Assembly: GCA_016217735.1 (NCBI GenBank)
Contig: JACRGQ010000063.1
Coordinates: 1 to 61,631, forward strand
From: Nitrospinota bacterium
Lineage (GTDB): Bacteria > Nitrospinota_A > UBA7883 > JACRGQ01
Reading direction: 5' to 3'
Length of the DNA: 61,631 nt
A program made the translations under genes and the position numbers. The number at the start of each line of letters is the position of its first letter. Positions within the stretch are counted from its first letter, which is position 1. Of this stretch, positions 4,621 through 11,766 are shown in pieces. The notes under the pieces were generated by a model. It did no database searches. It worked only from the letters and a program-made list of their open reading frames with translations, and was not told the origin of the DNA.

Positions 4621-5791
4621 CGATATTTTCTCCGCCGGGCTGGAAGACCTGGCCGCCCGCGGGCTGCTGCGCGCCGCCACGGCGTTCGATGGCGGCTCCG
4701 CGCGCACCGTCACGATAGACGGGCGCACACTTCTTCTCTTTTGCTCCAACGACTACTTCGGCCTTTCGCACGACCCGCGCATTGTGGCGGCGGTGAAGGA
4801 CGGGCTGGACCGGTACGGCTTCGGCTCCGGCGGTTCGCGCCTCATCTCCGGTACGCGGACTCCCCACGCGGAGCTTGAAAAAAACATCGCCTCGTTTCTT
4901 GGCATGGAGGCGGCGTTGCTCTTCGGCAGCGGCTTTTCGGCCAACAGCGGCGTGATCCCGGCCATCGCGGGCAAAGGGGATTTCATCATCGCCGACAAGC
5001 TCAACCACGCCTCGCTGGTGGATGGCTGCCGCCTCTCCCGCGCCGATTTCGCGCGCTACCCGCATCGCGACATGGCGGCCCTCGAAAAGCTTTTAAAGAA
5101 AGGACAATCCGCCCGCGCCCGCTGGATCATTACCGACGGCCTTTTCAGCATGGACGGCGACATGGCCCCGCTCGATGCCATCTGCGCGTTGGCGAAAAAA
5201 TACGGGGCATACGTTTATGTGGACGATGCCCACGCATTCGGCGTGTTGGGAAAAAACGGGCGCGGCACACCGGAACTGTTTGGCGTGGAGCATGACATCG
5301 ACATTCTCATGGGAACGCTGGGCAAGGCGGCCGGCGGCATGGGGGCGTTCGCGGCGGGAAAAAAAAGCACCGTTGATTGGCTGCTGAACAGGGCACGCAG
5401 CTTCATATTTTCCACCGCCATGCCGGCCGCGGTGGCGGCGGGAAGCCTGAAAGCGGTGGAGATACTGGGAAATTTTGAAACGGAACGTAACGCATTTTTT
5501 CGCGCCACCGAAGGCTGCCACCAGCGGCTAAAAACCGCTGGTTTTGCTATTCCGTCTAAAAGCTATATAATACCGCTCGTTATCGGGGAAGCGGGCGATG
5601 CCTTGGCAGCCGCGAAACGGCTGTGGGACGATGGGATATTTCTTCAGGCTGTACGGCCTCCCGCCGTCCAAGAAGGGACTTCCCGGCTCCGTTTAACGCT
5701 TTCCCTGGCGCATACGGAGCAAGACAGGGACGCAATGATCCGGGGATTGATAACGCACATTGGCGGCGGACATAAGGGGACAGCGCAATAG
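4613..5791 (+). CDS. bioF: 8-amino-7-oxononanoate synthase
   Basis: This 392-residue PLP enzyme of the alpha-oxoamine synthase family joins pimeloyl thioester to alanine, the first step in building the biotin rings. The PLP Lys is in GTLGKAAGGMGAF (about residue 237). The cofactor-stacking His and ring-nitrogen Asp are in YVDDAHAFGVLG, and the glycine-rich GSGGSRLISGT loop is near residue 70. Translation is taken from TTG 4613, which overlaps the bioB stop and has GGAGG three bases upstream, a rather close spacing. The next ATG in frame is too far into the fold. The stop TAG overlaps the possible ATA start of the next gene. Confidence 0.96.
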   Translation: MTDDIFSAGLEDLAARGLLRAATAFDGGSARTVTIDGRTLLLFCSNDYFGLSHDPRIVAAVKDGLDRYGFGSGGSRLISGTRTPHAELEKNIASFLGMEAALLFGSGFSANSGVIPAIAGKGDFIIADKLNHASLVDGCRLSRADFARYPHRDMAALEKLLKKGQSARARWIITDGLFSMDGDMAPLDAICALAKKYGAYVYVDDAHAFGVLGKNGRGTPELFGVEHDIDILMGTLGKAAGGMGAFAAGKKSTVDWLLNRARSFIFSTAMPAAVAAGSLKAVEILGNFETERNAFFRATEGCHQRLKTAGFAIPSKSYIIPLVIGEAGDALAAAKRLWDDGIFLQAVRPPAVQEGTSRLRLTLSLAHTEQDRDAMIRGLITHIGGGHKGTAQ

Positions 5792-6783
5792 AAACGAAAA
5801 AGATCATCCTGTTTGAAAAAGACGTCAAAGCGCGTCACATCATCGACATCATGATCCGCAAGATCGGATGCCCGAATGTGCTTGATGTGGAATCGCAGGA
5901 GGACTTCGACCAGGCAATCGCCTCGTCGATTGATCCCTATTCCGGCATGGCGGGTCTTCTGGGAAAGGCGGCCCTGCCAAAAATCCTTATCGACCTCATC
6001 ATCGTCGATTGGGATACCCCCGCGGGCGGCGCCATAAAACTTATTAAGACGATGAAGGCCAAATTTTCGGGACACTATCGCTTCCTGCTGGTGGCCGACA
6101 AGCGTCACTTTAACGAAATGAGCACGGCGCTCAAGGCGGGCGCCACCGATTTCATTCTGAAACCGTTCACCATGTCCGACTTCAACGAGAAAATGGAGAA
6201 CGTCCTTTCCGACAAACCGCTCACCGTGCAATCGTTCAGCATGGGGGCGGCATCCGAAAAATCAAAAAAAGTGGGGTACGGCGTGAACCCTTTCGCGGTG
6301 GATAAAAGCGCTCCCGCCGCGCCCAAGGTGGAAACGCCGCCCGTGGCGGCAAAGCCGGAAGCGCCCCCCGCGGCGCCACGCATCGCCCCCCGGGTAAAAC
6401 CGAAATTCGCGCCTCCCGCCGCCGGCACGGGCGGAGGCGGCACCTCCTTCTACACCTCCTCGACGGGGAAAAAGCGCCCCGAAAACGCCGAGCCGACCGC
6501 CACCCTCATCGACGGCAAAATCGACGGTCATTACCACGAGAAGGTGGACGTTATCGGCGGCGGCGAGAATTGCTACTGGGCCCAAGAGACGGAGACCGGC
6601 AAAGTGCGCCTGGAATATCTGAGCGCCAAAGGAACACCCACCGGCATGCAAGCGAAAATAATCGACCGCGACGACTTCATGTTCAGTTTCTACCTCTGCG
6701 AAGAATACGGCTGCAACCTGTTGCGCCGCCTTGGTCAGTGGCCCCCGCCCGGTTACGAAGAAAAAGCGGACAACATCACCTGA
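5788..6783 (+). CDS. Receiver-domain protein with Pro/Ala linker and unknown C-terminal domain
   Basis: Residues 1-140 look like a degenerate CheY-type receiver. A first strand KKIILFEKD is followed by LIIVDWDTP (phospho-acceptor Asp about residue 74), the Ala-rich switch region LKAGATDF and the conserved Lys in FILKPF. A Pro/Ala-rich linker (about 165-225) leads to a 100-residue domain with Cys in GGGENCYWAQE and LCEEYGCNLL that I do not recognise. The first ATG in frame is at 5851, but that start would delete strand one. ATA 5788 gives METKKIILFEKD, has GGGGA seven bases upstream and overlaps the bioF stop as ATAG. A rare ATA start, or an ATG-to-ATA change, is therefore suggested. No DNA-binding output domain is seen, so a signalling adaptor role is inferred. 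Confidence 0.7.
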   Translation: METKKIILFEKDVKARHIIDIMIRKIGCPNVLDVESQEDFDQAIASSIDPYSGMAGLLGKAALPKILIDLIIVDWDTPAGGAIKLIKTMKAKFSGHYRFLLVADKRHFNEMSTALKAGATDFILKPFTMSDFNEKMENVLSDKPLTVQSFSMGAASEKSKKVGYGVNPFAVDKSAPAAPKVETPPVAAKPEAPPAAPRIAPRVKPKFAPPAAGTGGGGTSFYTSSTGKKRPENAEPTATLIDGKIDGHYHEKVDVIGGGENCYWAQETETGKVRLEYLSAKGTPTGMQAKIIDRDDFMFSFYLCEEYGCNLLRRLGQWPPPGYEEKADNIT

Positions 6784-6887
6784 TTTCCCCGCCGCGCCGC
6801 CCGCCGCGCGCGTTCCCCCCATAACCGCCGCGTGAATTGCGCCCCAAGTCGCGGAAACGGGGTAGAATACCGTACATGGGGGAACGG

Positions 6888-7268
6888 ATGAAGAAGAAGC
6901 CGCTGGAATGGCTGCGGCAGGCGGATTTCGATATGGATACCGCCGACCTCGTTCTGGGGGTGGGACGCTTCTTCTACGCCGTTTTCATGTGCCACCTCGC
7001 GTTGGAGAAGGCGTTGAAGGGCGTTTACACGGCCAAGCTGCGGCGCGTTCCCCCAAAAACCCACAGTCTGGTCTATTTGGTGGAACGGATGAAGCTGCAT
7101 GTGCCGGATCCGATATTCGACTACCTCTACACGCTCAACCGCGTGAGCGCGCAGATACGCTATCCGGATGACCTGCACAAGATGCTCGATACGTTCAGCG
7201 AGGGAATGACCCGTGATCTCCTCATGGAGGGGAGGAAAGCGTTGGAATGGATAAAGGGAAGGTTATAA
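6888..7268 (+). CDS. HEPN domain protein, putative HepT-like toxin
   Basis: This 126-residue all-alpha protein fits the HEPN family (COG2250 type). It starts MKKKPLEWLRQADFD, contains the core CHLALEKALKGVY, and ends with a helix including SAQIRYPDDLHKML. The R-x5-H in RYPDDLH may be the catalytic RNase signature R-x4-6-H. It is followed, with a 22-base overlap, by a minimal nucleotidyltransferase. In known HEPN/MNT pairs the HEPN partner is the toxic RNase and the nucleotidyltransferase silences it by adding AMP. ATG 6888 has a GGGGGA site just upstream; ATG 6876 is an alternative. Function is inferred from family and pairing. Confidence 0.85.
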   Translation: MKKKPLEWLRQADFDMDTADLVLGVGRFFYAVFMCHLALEKALKGVYTAKLRRVPPKTHSLVYLVERMKLHVPDPIFDYLYTLNRVSAQIRYPDDLHKMLDTFSEGMTRDLLMEGRKALEWIKGRL

Positions 7269-7585
7269 CCGCTATCGGCCGCCTGAAGGACATCCTTCTC
7301 GCGGAAGGGCTGCATCTCGACCGGATCATCCTCTTCGGCAGCCGCATACGCGGCGACGAACAGGAGGAGAGCGACATCGACCTGCTGGTTATCTCGGAGG
7401 ATTTTGCGGGGAAGAGCATCTTCGAGCGCGCGGCGCTGACGAAGAACGCCGAGATCACCGCCATGAAGCAGTTTCAGGTGCCGTTCGATATTATCACCCT
7501 CACCGAAGAGGAGTTTGAAAGCGGCGGTTCGCTCTTTGCGCAGTTCGCCGAAGACGGGGAAACGGTTTACCGCAAGCCGGAATGA
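7247..7585 (+). CDS. MNT-domain nucleotidyltransferase, putative MntA-like antitoxin
   Basis: This 112-residue protein has the minimal nucleotidyltransferase signature: GSRIRGDEQEESDIDLLV gives the G-S-x10-D-x-D pattern that binds the nucleotide and metal, preceded by the strand LDRIILFG. In characterised HEPN/MNT modules this partner adenylylates a Tyr of the HEPN RNase and blocks it. The gene begins 22 bases inside the HEPN gene, as usual for such pairs, so expression is tightly coupled. Only one acidic cluster (DID) plus a later possible third Asp (FDIITL) is seen, which is enough for the family. Confidence 0.9.
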   Translation: MDKGKVITAIGRLKDILLAEGLHLDRIILFGSRIRGDEQEESDIDLLVISEDFAGKSIFERAALTKNAEITAMKQFQVPFDIITLTEEEFESGGSLFAQFAEDGETVYRKPE

Positions 7586-7603: not shown

Positions 7604-8893
7604 CTAGAACCGGTAGTCGAGGTTCAGGAATACCGAGGTGGTTTTGTAGCTGGAGGGGTACTTCACGGCGTTGAGCGTGGGGATATTCTGGTCGCTGTAC
7701 TCCAGCATGCCGTAAAAGAAGAGCTGCCTGGTGACGCTGTAGTTCACCGATGCGCCGTAAATCATCTGGGTCAGATCGCCGTCGGCGTTGTCCTGTTTGC
7801 TGGACATGTAGGTGGCGCTCACTTCGCCGCCGATATCTTCGCGCGGGTTCGCCCCCACCGCGAAAAAGCCCTGCCATCCCTTGTTGGTGTAATAGTTCAC
7901 CGCCCGGTAGGCGAGGTTGCAATACATCGTGCCCGGCATCTCGTTTTGCCGGTAACCGACGCCCATGATGTTGCCGTCTTTGCCGTCATTGCCGCGGGTG
8001 GCATAGGACAGGTCGGTGTATATCTTGCCGCCGCTGGTGATGCTGTAATCGGCATAAACGCCGTAGTTCCGGTTGATATTGTGGTCGATGCCGTATTTCA
8101 TGGTGTCTTGCAGCCAGATGGCGCGGTATTGGTTATAGGTTAAATTCAGCCGTGCCGTCCAGCCCCACCGGTAGTTCATGTTCACGAACAGGGTGGTGAT
8201 GTCGGGGCCGTCTTTGTTGCCGCTGGCGTCGCCGGAAACCTTGTTGTCCACCCGCAACGAGCTGTATAGGCTCATGGCGTCGTCCGGCGACCAGGCGAGC
8301 GAACCGTAGAGGTACATTTCGTCCTCATTGCCCTTGTGCTGGCTGGCGGCCAAACCGATCGAAGTGGAAAATCCCTTTGTGCGCAGGTAGGTGTAGAGTC
8401 CGTAGGTGGTGTAGTCGCTGGTGAAGTAGTCTTGCAACGGGTCGGCCTTGGTTCCCCCAAAAAGCCCCGCCCCGGCCGTCTCGCCCAAGGCGAAATCCGC
8501 GTTGAGGCCGTCCACCTTCGCGCCGGGCATCGGGTCGATGTACTGCCGGCCGAGGGTCAGCCTGGTTCCGGTGCCGGCCACATGTTGCATATCGACATTC
8601 ACCTGGTCGATGCGGGTGTTGTCGATATGGCTGTTGTAGTCCTTGCCGCCCACGGTGCGGTATTGCCCGTCGAAGTGGAAGTCGGTTTTATCGGCCAGAC
8701 CGAGCGCATTGAGGTAGAGGCGGGTGCGGGTGAAATTGTAGGTCTGGTTGGCCGCGTCGTCGTTTTGCATAAAGAGCGATTCTGAAACGCGTCCCTTGAT
8801 TTCCACGGCGGAAGCCGGGGAGGGGAGCGCGGCCGCCATCAGCCCCGCCAGCAACCCGGCGGTAAATATTCCCTTCTTCATGTCCGTCACCAT
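7604..8893 (-). CDS. Outer-membrane beta-barrel protein coupled to the multiheme cytochrome
   Basis: This 429-residue protein has a signal peptide (MKKGIFTAGLLAGLMAAALP, cleavage after ASA). After it come many alternating amphipathic strands rich in Tyr, Asn and Gly and a C-terminal strand ending FLNLDYRF, where the terminal Phe is the mark of BAM-assembled outer-membrane proteins. No named porin family is recognised. The start ATG overlaps the stop of the 36-haem cytochrome (TGATG), so the two are translated together; a second ATG at 8881 begins the signal peptide proper. In porin-cytochrome conduits a barrel threads a multihaem cytochrome through the outer membrane. That role is inferred here from the coupling. 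The barrel itself carries no CxxCH motif. Confidence 0.8.
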   Translation of the reverse strand: MVTDMKKGIFTAGLLAGLMAAALPSPASAVEIKGRVSESLFMQNDDAANQTYNFTRTRLYLNALGLADKTDFHFDGQYRTVGGKDYNSHIDNTRIDQVNVDMQHVAGTGTRLTLGRQYIDPMPGAKVDGLNADFALGETAGAGLFGGTKADPLQDYFTSDYTTYGLYTYLRTKGFSTSIGLAASQHKGNEDEMYLYGSLAWSPDDAMSLYSSLRVDNKVSGDASGNKDGPDITTLFVNMNYRWGWTARLNLTYNQYRAIWLQDTMKYGIDHNINRNYGVYADYSITSGGKIYTDLSYATRGNDGKDGNIMGVGYRQNEMPGTMYCNLAYRAVNYYTNKGWQGFFAVGANPREDIGGEVSATYMSSKQDNADGDLTQMIYGASVNYSVTRQLFFYGMLEYSDQNIPTLNAVKYPSSYKTTSVFLNLDYRF

Positions 8894-11766
8894 CAATTGC
8901 AGGCCGGTCCGTTATAGGCCGGGTTCTTAAAGGTCGATGTCGTGTGGCAGAGGGCGCAGTCCGTCGGGCACGGATTCGCGCCGGTATGCTTGCCCTGATA
9001 GGTCAGGCTTGGCGCCATGGCGGGCGTCGCGCCGGAGGTGTGGCACTTGAAGCAGCCTGATTCCACCGATGTGGCGGGGATCGAGAGTGTGCCGCCGCTG
9101 GCGGCGTGGCACTTGGCGCAGTCGTTCTTCACCGCGATGTGCGCCCCGGTAAAGGTCATGCTCTTGTGGCTGAATGTGGCTCCCGTCCAGGTGAATGCGC
9201 CGCTCTTGTGGCATACCACGCAGTTGGTGTTGCCGCTGGAGTGGAAAGCCGCGGCGGCCGGCTTGGTGAAGTCGGCCACATGGCAGAGGTAGCAGGTTTG
9301 CGGGGTGTTGCGGTAGTTGCGCGCCTGATGGCACTGCTCGCACGTGGCGGCGCGGTGTCCCCCTTCAAGCCGGAAGCCGGTCTCGGTATGCCGGAATTTT
9401 TCCGGGAACCAGTTTTTGGCGGTGTGGCACTGGCCGCAGGCCGCGGGGCCGAACTGGTTGTAGTGCGGATCGGTGTGGCACTTCACGCAGTCGGATCCAA
9501 GTCCGGTGAAGATGCCCTTGGTTTTGTGGCACTCGTTGCAGGCGATCTGCGTGTGGGCGCCTTGCAGGGTGAAGCCGGTCACTTCGTGGAAGAAGCTCTT
9601 AGGCTCCCAGTTCACGGCGGTGTGGCACTGTTCGCACTTCGGTCCCATCTTGCCCTGGTGCGCTTTGTCGTCCTGTTTCCGGTGGCAGTCGAGGCACTCG
9701 GATTTGAGCGGCTTCCAGACCTTGCCTTCGTGGCACTTTTCGCAGGTGACGCCGGTGTGTTTGCCTTCCAGCGGGAAGCGCGCCTGGGTGCCGTGGTTGA
9801 AGGTCAGCTGTTTCCAGTCTTTCGGGGTGTGGCACTGCTCGCATGCCTTGTCGCGGAACTGGCCGGCATGCGGGTCTTTGTGGCAATACGCGCCGGCGCA
9901 GCTCTTCGCGTCGATGCCGCGGAATGTCGGGATGCCGCCGCCGTTTGTTTTGTGGCACTTGTCGCATTTCGTTTCGGCGTGCTTGCCTTCCAGTTTATAG
10001 CCTTTGTATGCGGCGGCGTTGTGGTCGAACAGGCTCGGCTTCCACTCTTTCGGGGTGTGGCACTGCTCGCATTTTGCATCCTTGAATTGCGGGCCGTGGA
10101 TGTTGCCCCGCTCCTTGATGTCGTGGCACCCGGCGTTATCGCAGCGGTCGGCGGCTATCGGCTTGAAGAGCGCCACCTGGGTGAGCGGGTCGGGCCGGTG
10201 GCATTTGTCGCACTTCATGGCGGCGTGTTTGCCTTCCAGCTTATAGCCTTTGTATGCGGCGGCGTTGTGGTCGAACAGGCTCGGCTTCCAGTTTTCCTCG
10301 TTATGGCAGCCGGCGCACAGCTGGCCCTTGAACTGCGGGCCGTGGATGTTGCCGCGGCTCTTGATGTCGTGGCATCCGGCGCCGTCGCAGCGGTCGCTGG
10401 CTATCGGCTTGAAGAGCGCCACTTTGGTGACCACGTCGGGGGCGTGGCACTTGTCGCATTTCAGGGCGGTATGCCTGCCCTTCAGCTTGTAGCCTTTGTA
10501 CGCGGCGGCCGCGTGGTCGAACAGGCTCGGCTTCCAGTTCTCCTCGTTGTGGCATCCGGCGCACATCTGGCCCTTGAACTGCGGGCCGTGGATGTTGCCC
10601 CGCTCCTTGATGTCGTGGCATCCCGCGTTGTCGCAGCGGTCGCTGGGTATCGGCTTGAAGAGCGCCACTTTGGTGACCGCGTCGGGGCGGTGGCACTTTT
10701 CGCATTCCAGCTTGGCGTGTTTGCCTTTCAGCTTGTAGCCCGGATAGGCCGGGTCTTCATGTTTGAAGGTGGCCGGCTTGAAGCCCTGCACGGCATGGCA
10801 CTCTTCGCATTTTTTCCCGGCGAACTGCTTGTCATGCACGTTGCCGAACTTTCCTTTGTCGTGGCAGCCGGGGGCGTCGCAGGCGTCGTACTTCGCAATC
10901 TTGAAGACCCCCTTGGCCCTTTCCACATGGCATTTCTCGCACGGCGTTTGCGCGTGCTTTCCCAGCAGCGGGTATTTGGTTGTCTTGTGGTCGAACTGTA
11001 TCTGTTTCCAGTTGGCCGGCACGTGGCAGCTTTCGCATTTCGGCCCCAGGCCCCCTTTGTGCTTGTCGTCTTTCTTGTGGCAGGTGATGCACTGTTCCTT
11101 GTTCTCCACCTGGAACAATCCCTTCACGGTGTGGCACTTGGCGCATTCCACTTTGGCGTGTTTGCCTTCCAGCTTGTAGGGCTTGTCGTGGTCGAAGGTG
11201 ACGTTTTTGCCTTTCCAGCCGTTTGTGTTGTGGCAGTTTTCGCACTTCTCCTTGAGCGTGCCTTTGTGGATATCGTCTTTTTTGTGGCAACTGAAACAGG
11301 CGGTTTCAAGGCCGGCGTAGCTGACGATCCCTTTTTTGGTTTTGGCGGTGTGGCACTTGATGCATTCGACGGGTGAATGCTTGCCCACCAGCTTGTAGCC
11401 GGTGGTGGCGTGGTCGAATTTCTTGATGTCCCCTTCGGTGCCGCGGTAACCGCGTCCTTTATGGTCCTTGTGGCACTTCACGCATTGCTGGTCCGCCACG
11501 CCGCCGTGCAACCCCTTTTTAATGGCTTGGGCCGCCGCCACGCCGGCGTGACAGCCCACCGACGTGCAGTTGGCGTTCGGAAGCCCTTCGCCCTTGGTGT
11601 GGCACTTGGTGCAGTTTGAAAGCCCTTCGAGATCGGCGTGGAACGATCCGAGTTCGCCGGGGCTGATCAGGCTGCCAAAATCGGCCGCATAAGAAGAGTG
11701 GGGGTGGCCGAATAGAATCAGGGCGAATAGAGAGAGTGCTAGCAAAAGACGTTTGTTCAAAGGCAC
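8893..11766 (-). CDS. Giant multiheme cytochrome c, 36 haem-binding motifs
   Basis: This 957-residue exported protein has a signal peptide of about 28 residues (KRLLLALSLFALILFG, cleavage near SSYAA). I count 36 haem attachment motifs: 30 of CX2CH type and six of CX4CH type (CTSVGCH, CDAPGCH, CDNAGCH twice, CDGAGCH, CAGAYCH), about one haem per 26 residues. Modules of the pattern F-D-H ... Y-K-L-x-G-K-H ... C-x-K-C-H recur throughout, giving many potential distal His ligands. Three near-identical 82-residue units lie at 355-600. No membrane anchor or lipobox Cys is seen. The likely role is periplasmic or cell-surface electron transfer, perhaps to extracellular minerals, inferred from haem density and the coupled barrel gene. 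The start is GTG 11766 or TTG 11760. Confidence 0.93.
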   Translation of the reverse strand: MPLNKRLLLALSLFALILFGHPHSSYAADFGSLISPGELGSFHADLEGLSNCTKCHTKGEGLPNANCTSVGCHAGVAAAQAIKKGLHGGVADQQCVKCHKDHKGRGYRGTEGDIKKFDHATTGYKLVGKHSPVECIKCHTAKTKKGIVSYAGLETACFSCHKKDDIHKGTLKEKCENCHNTNGWKGKNVTFDHDKPYKLEGKHAKVECAKCHTVKGLFQVENKEQCITCHKKDDKHKGGLGPKCESCHVPANWKQIQFDHKTTKYPLLGKHAQTPCEKCHVERAKGVFKIAKYDACDAPGCHDKGKFGNVHDKQFAGKKCEECHAVQGFKPATFKHEDPAYPGYKLKGKHAKLECEKCHRPDAVTKVALFKPIPSDRCDNAGCHDIKERGNIHGPQFKGQMCAGCHNEENWKPSLFDHAAAAYKGYKLKGRHTALKCDKCHAPDVVTKVALFKPIASDRCDGAGCHDIKSRGNIHGPQFKGQLCAGCHNEENWKPSLFDHNAAAYKGYKLEGKHAAMKCDKCHRPDPLTQVALFKPIAADRCDNAGCHDIKERGNIHGPQFKDAKCEQCHTPKEWKPSLFDHNAAAYKGYKLEGKHAETKCDKCHKTNGGGIPTFRGIDAKSCAGAYCHKDPHAGQFRDKACEQCHTPKDWKQLTFNHGTQARFPLEGKHTGVTCEKCHEGKVWKPLKSECLDCHRKQDDKAHQGKMGPKCEQCHTAVNWEPKSFFHEVTGFTLQGAHTQIACNECHKTKGIFTGLGSDCVKCHTDPHYNQFGPAACGQCHTAKNWFPEKFRHTETGFRLEGGHRAATCEQCHQARNYRNTPQTCYLCHVADFTKPAAAAFHSSGNTNCVVCHKSGAFTWTGATFSHKSMTFTGAHIAVKNDCAKCHAASGGTLSIPATSVESGCFKCHTSGATPAMAPSLTYQGKHTGANPCPTDCALCHTTSTFKNPAYNGPACN
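9967..10704 (-). repeat. Three tandem 246-bp repeats inside the cytochrome gene
   Basis: Each unit encodes 82 residues with three haem motifs (CX2CH, CX4CH, CX2CH). Shared blocks include VALFKPI, DRCD-x-AGCHDIK, RGNIHGPQFK, WKPSLFDH and AAYKGYKL. Unit starts are at residues 355, 437 and 519. The preceding unit (from about residue 277) is a diverged copy. DNA identity between the three is high, which points to recent duplication and potential copy-number change. Confidence 0.9.

Follow-up and report, generated by a model that had tools for sequence, protein, structure and literature searches.

Giant cytochromes encoded beside porins are already known from Burkholderiales and from porin-cytochrome complex 3 (PCC3; He et al. 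2017, PMC5566968). PCC3, found in Sideroxydans, Leptothrix and others, places cytochromes of 20-85 haems beside porins in a layout of a five-helix inner-membrane protein of about 300 aa with two WX3HX13H motifs, a periplasmic cytochrome of about 20 haems, an extracellular repeat cytochrome and a porin; the median motif counts of its cytochromes are 34 and 21, and the median residue-to-haem ratio is 26 (PMC5566968). An envelope-spanning 'molecular wire' was already proposed for this complex in 2017 (PMC5566968). What is known of PCC3-type conduits comes solely from gene clusters and expression data. PCC3 is functionally unverified (PMC12442390), is down-regulated on Fe(II) in Sideroxydans ES-1 (PMC8788666) and has been discussed for Fe(II) oxidation without proof (PMC12442390, PMC8788666). 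The Burkholderiales porin cluster encodes cytochromes of 24 and 49 haems (PMC7399161). The decahaem MtrA forms a rod of about 104 Angstrom and Pcc porins have 18-22 strands (PMC4245776); MtrB was predicted to have 28 strands (PMC4245776) and has 26 in its structure (PMC12133095). The Geobacter periplasmic nanowire GSU1996 consists of four tri-haem domains and is thought to store charge (PMC10138318), and a Desulfuromonas cytochrome with 86 motifs is not part of a conduit (PMC12133095).

The stretch of DNA analysed here (61,631 nucleotides, hereafter the window) forms contig 63 in an assembly of 2.53 Mb and 95% completeness. Among named relatives the closest, from the same genus, are the metagenome assemblies nzgw266 and nzgw267, labelled 'Nitrospinales bacterium' and placed in Nitrospinota according to the submitters' label. 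For comparison we used 24 genomes of the phylum, and the barrel profile was searched against 385 genomes in all. The window encodes a large multihaem cytochrome followed by a predicted outer-membrane barrel (Table 1). The pair is very probably a PCC3-like porin-cytochrome conduit in one-polypeptide form, that is, a compact modular variant and not a new kind of conduit.

Table 1. Features of the cytochrome-barrel pair, with positions in the window.
Feature	Position	Strand	Basis
Predicted outer-membrane beta-barrel, 429 aa from the overlapping ATG, C-terminal Phe	7604..8893	-	Junction sequence, AlphaFold2, family
Stop/start overlap TGATG	8891..8895	-	Junction sequence
36-haem c-type cytochrome, 957 aa, first gene of the pair	8893..11766	-	ORF and motif count, Pfam match, homologues
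N-terminal export signal of the cytochrome MPLNKRLLLALSLFALILFGHPHSSYA, no lipobox	11686..11766	-	Read from sequence; relatives arranged alike
Array of twelve tri-haem units, haems 1-36	8896..11613	-	Motif spacing and unit alignment
Units 5-7, most recent tandem duplicates	9967..10704	-	Pairwise unit comparison, 82-88% DNA identity

An original prediction made from the DNA had described an exported protein of 957 residues with 36 CX2CH/CX4CH motifs, its stop overlapping the barrel start as TGATG, and on re-reading both the coordinates and counts and the overlap were correct. The cytochrome gene begins with GTG and encodes a type-I signal peptide; neither a lipobox nor a membrane anchor was found in the protein. 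Its haem motifs (30 CX2CH and 6 CX4CH) are far above chance, as 2000 shuffles with the composition kept averaged 0.86 motifs and never exceeded 6. The tandem repeated units of the original prediction are borne out by spacing and alignment as tri-haem units, each with three CXnCH motifs and three conserved non-motif histidines, the twelfth being degenerate. The high identity among units 5-7 points to recent duplication or homogenisation, and the relatives L024 and L025 have one unit fewer. With 74 histidines for 36 haems there is about one non-motif histidine per haem, which fits the need of bis-His ligation, and the protein has 26.6 residues per haem (957/36). Pfam Cytochrome_C7 matched the protein with an E of 1.2e-28, and PF14522 matched seven stretches of it. 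By profile the best solved relative was 3ov0, the dodecahaem GSU1996 (E 3.3e-6), and there was weak similarity to MtrA (6r2q_A, E 5.6e-4). The DmsE model TIGR03508 fell far short of its cut-off (36.5 against 192.2 bits), and TIGR04257 (NCBI nanowire_3heme) was not among the matches at E<=1. The AlphaFold2 model of the cytochrome was of low quality (pLDDT 42, pTM 0.23, 13-row alignment) and was set aside.

At the junction AATTGATGGTG the barrel ATG shares one base with the cytochrome stop, an overlap that likely leads to translational coupling of both genes. An inner ATG at 8881 is the more likely barrel start, giving 425 aa with a signal peptide MKKG...ASA. The AlphaFold2 model built from 18 sequences (pLDDT 83.8, pTM 0.74) predicts a barrel of 22 strands that lacks a plug domain. 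The MtrB/PioB model PF11854, representing one of the families against which the original prediction had proposed to search the barrel, matched none of 18 barrel relatives at E<=10 and nothing in the organism's own genome. Pfam and NCBIfam give the barrel no name, distant relatives showing only weak, scattered matches. Foldseek searches against PDB and viral structures returned only generic barrels, led by the FimD usher and generic porins with TM of about 0.3-0.5, and MtrB was absent from the top 50 listed; the barrel profile had no match among PDB sequences, and no homologue was found in plasmid records. Convergent with the barrel gene, at 6837-7585 (+) of the window, lies a HEPN-domain protein and nucleotidyltransferase pair (Pfam HEPN, NTP_transf_2), an arrangement typical of toxin-antitoxin systems. 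By eye only, the barrel in L130 also has nearby (5607-6300) a nucleotidyltransferase-like gene with a HEPN-sized one after it.

Homologues of the barrel were found in 20 of the 24 phylum genomes, and the cytochrome is present in exactly these 20, the remaining four being without either. The conserved adjacency in related genomes that had been proposed as a check on the original prediction is complete where contigs allow it, with the cytochrome directly upstream of the barrel on the same strand in 19/19 genomes with a long enough contig; in the twentieth (G022) the two genes lie on separate short contigs. Twelve of 13 complete aligned cytochromes contain 30, 33, 36, 39 or 42 motifs, and the thirteenth (L038) has 32 plus one CX5CH (CAEEAACH, read from the alignment). 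A shorter cytochrome, L035, has 18 (16 CX2CH and 2 CX4CH). Complete relatives thus carry 18, 30, 33, 36, 39 or 42 haems, always whole tri-haem units when the CX5CH of L038 is counted, and random differences in haem number were therefore rejected; these genomes are related, so that these multiples of three are not independent events. Length differences among the aligned cytochromes are largely whole modules. In one genome (G005, L026:1785-4521) the cytochrome reading frame is split over two overlapping frames, either through an error of assembly or because the gene is truly broken. G018, of the same class, is without the cytochrome and barrel yet has three matches to the lipoprotein cytochromes described below, so that another conduit may exist there.

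Outside the phylum, the barrel profile found homologues in 24 genomes, and these loci were found without any cytochrome information. A cytochrome of at least 5 haems stands directly beside the barrel on the same strand in 22/24 outside loci with a confirmed barrel ORF; the exceptions, without such an adjoining cytochrome, are L077 and L072, the barrel ORF of the latter being cut off by the end of the contig. Five loci (L057, L058, L059, L064 and L080) show the PCC3 order of inner-membrane protein, 20-haem cytochrome, tri-haem-repeat cytochrome and barrel, the assignment to PCC3 being by the published layout and not by name. The inner-membrane protein of these loci has about 300 residues, five helices and two copies of WX3HX13H, one of which is a plain HX13H in L059. 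A further locus, L074, has the first three PCC3 genes, and its barrel ORF was below threshold in a local re-search. The original prediction could not place the barrel in the MtrB/PioB or PCC families, but its profile reaches the PCC3-layout loci with E values from 1e-24 to 2e-5. It also matches L068, which has the Pcc layout of barrel, 8-haem and 9-haem cytochromes, and hhalign aligned the barrel with that of a classical Pcc-layout locus (97%, E 5.6e-11), that locus being assigned to Pcc by its layout and not through a named Geobacter sequence. The profile of the window-type cytochrome matches the 20-haem protein with the profile's N-terminal part (positions ~30-377), where both share an ISPGxLSxxH...NCTxCH start, and the repeat protein with the profile's C-terminal part (positions ~547-846). 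The window cytochrome therefore looks like both PCC3 cytochromes in one chain. L063 and L065 also encode a single large cytochrome, of 27 haems, that matches both parts. In other phyla, repeat cytochromes beside a homologous barrel reach 76 CX2CH in 1954 residues (L079:6845-12709) and at least 49 motifs in a near-perfect 31-16-25 spacing (L069:7487-11044, running off the contig).

In the window the pair stands alone, with no second cytochrome gene found adjoining it, and the inner-membrane protein and lipoprotein cytochromes are encoded on other contigs of the own genome. A PCC3-type inner-membrane protein is encoded on contig 41 (46452-47285, E 5.9e-90). The gene after it codes for a protein of about 440-460 residues, both here (L129:6399-8649, from contig 41) and in five family members (L027, L028 and L130-L132); the own-genome copy of this follower, the sole copy domain-tested, resembles a ferredoxin and pyridine-nucleotide-disulphide oxidoreductase. 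Such a ferredoxin-flavin oxidoreductase, which the published PCC3 definition does not include, might perhaps connect cytoplasmic NAD(P)H or ferredoxin with the conduit. In those five family members the inner-membrane protein module lies 1.5-5 kb from the barrel, and four genera with the pair (G011, G012, G019, G021) gave no strong match to the inner-membrane protein. A weaker homologue of it with one in-frame TGA occurs in two genomes of the genus (G000:C42:37995-38699 and G003:C102:9919-10620). In G008, G010, G013, G016 and G017, the neighbourhood of the pair, within a few kb, includes lipoprotein cytochromes of 7-12 haems. The own genome encodes two homologues of these, 8-haem lipoproteins in tandem on contig 3 (E 9e-85). 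Contig 40 (L099) carries a dense multihaem cluster of a 13-haem lipoprotein, a tri-haem periplasmic cytochrome matching TIGR04257, a cytochrome with 19 haems and a cytochrome-b domain, and a 17-haem protein of NapC/NirT type. Taken together, the genes on contigs 41, 3 and 40 indicate that parts for a full chain from the inner membrane to the surface are encoded.

Compared with described systems, the pair resembles PCC3 in its homologous barrel, in the homologous N-terminal and tri-haem-repeat parts of the cytochrome, in about 26 residues per haem and in the presence of an inner-membrane protein with WX3HX13H motifs in the genome. It differs in having one 36-haem polypeptide instead of separate proteins of about 21 and 34 haems, a two-gene locus with the inner-membrane protein and surface cytochromes encoded elsewhere, and a barrel of 425-429 aa and 22 strands, whereas PCC3 barrels are mostly larger. 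The original prediction took known conduits to have about 8-12 haems, which is too narrow in view of the PCC3 medians (PMC5566968). The Burkholderiales cluster shares giant cytochromes beside a porin, there found with the OmbB model, and a haem number that varies among relatives, but it has two cytochromes and belongs to another lineage (PMC7399161). Like the Geobacter Pcc (OmbB-OmaB-OmcB) and Ext conduits, which work in reduction, the system here has a small barrel (18-22 strands), an exported cytochrome and lipoprotein cytochromes in the genome, but with 36 haems, some bound by CX4CH, where the periplasmic cytochromes of those conduits have 5-15 (PMC4245776, PMC6148476). An exported cytochrome with an outer-membrane barrel and the weak MtrA similarity recall MtrAB, MtoAB and PioAB, from which the pair is set apart by 22 instead of 26-28 strands, 36 instead of 10 haems and the lack of an MtrB/PioB match. 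OetABI of syntrophic sulphate reducers, compared by description, likewise joins a porin with large cytochromes, but as a separate periplasmic cytochrome and a surface lipoprotein (PMC10553843); it was our first choice as nearest precedent and was dropped, since PCC3 fits better. With GSU1996 the cytochrome shares a chain of tri-haem c7-like units, but GSU1996 has one His-Met haem per domain, whereas about three non-motif histidines per unit make bis-His ligation likely here; GSU1996 and GSU2210 further differ from it by the linked barrel and the lack of a TIGR04257 match.

We consider it likely that the pair is the central part of a PCC3-homologous conduit carrying electrons across the envelope. 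Of the original proposal of a candidate new electron conduit, the conserved linkage, the conduit-type barrel and the role in electron conduction are supported, and the claim to a new kind gives way to PCC3, published in 2017. It is improbable that the cytochrome is instead a free periplasmic 'nanowire' or capacitor storing electrons, like Geobacter GSU1996 or GSU2210, with the barrel merely co-transcribed. Its best solved relative is indeed a presumed charge store (PMC10138318) and it is without lipobox or anchor, but throughout the phylum it is strictly linked to the barrel and occurs together with it, its distant homologues show the linkage as well, and TIGR04257 fails to match it, all of which argues against a free protein.

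An ordinary role of the barrel in substrate passage or export, with only incidental linkage, is very unlikely: the Foldseek matches to the usher and generic porins and the weak Pfam porin-model scores of a few distant members would agree with it, but the barrel has 22 strands and no plug domain, adjacency is invariable in the phylum, and the whole family tracks multihaem cytochromes, as in 22/24 outside loci, so that the unrelated porin named as a possible refutation of the original prediction is not supported. Less likely still is passage of the cytochrome through the barrel to form or feed an extracellular filament. A long repeat cytochrome with a barrel gene and the surface lipoprotein cytochromes of the own genome, including the 13-haem lipoprotein, could be read in this way, but the closest sequence relatives are MtrA/c7-type and PCC3 cytochromes and not OmcS, OmcE or OmcZ, and relatives differ in length by whole modules, where a polymer subunit would be expected to have a fixed size. 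Where the original prediction offered a long molecular wire or a filament, the wire is the same idea as the PCC3 hypothesis of 2017 and nothing favours the filament.

As a PCC3-like conduit, the exported 36-haem protein would fold as twelve tri-haem modules in a row and so stack its haems closely into a chain. One part of the protein would sit in or against the 22-strand barrel in the outer membrane, and the remainder would reach across the periplasm. At the pitch of MtrA, about 104 Angstrom per ten haems, 36 haems would extend about 37 nm, a rough yardstick that bending or stacking could change. Such a length would cover the periplasm and outer membrane at their usual widths. The cytochrome's partners in electron exchange would be, on the inner side, the five-helix, probably b-haem inner-membrane protein of contig 41, small tri-haem cytochromes of the periplasm or both; at the outer face they would be the surface lipoprotein cytochromes of contig 3. 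The flow could be out of or into the cell. More tentatively, and with some doubt, a single twelve-module polypeptide might serve as the whole wire from the inner-membrane donor across the periplasm, into and through the barrel, replacing the two giant PCC3 cytochromes, with its reach determined by how many whole modules have been gained or lost (18 to 42 haems among relatives).

In open-licence papers we found no description of the single-chain form with a small barrel, of its near universality in this lineage or of haem numbers in steps of three. The lineage carries the simplest PCC3-like version found here, with two overlapping genes, one cytochrome and one small barrel, a simplicity that makes reconstitution and structure determination tractable. 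The variation in haem number by whole modules provides a natural series for testing length against periplasm width. The pair is almost universal in an uncultured phylum-level group, and extracellular electron exchange would by implication be a trait of most of this lineage.
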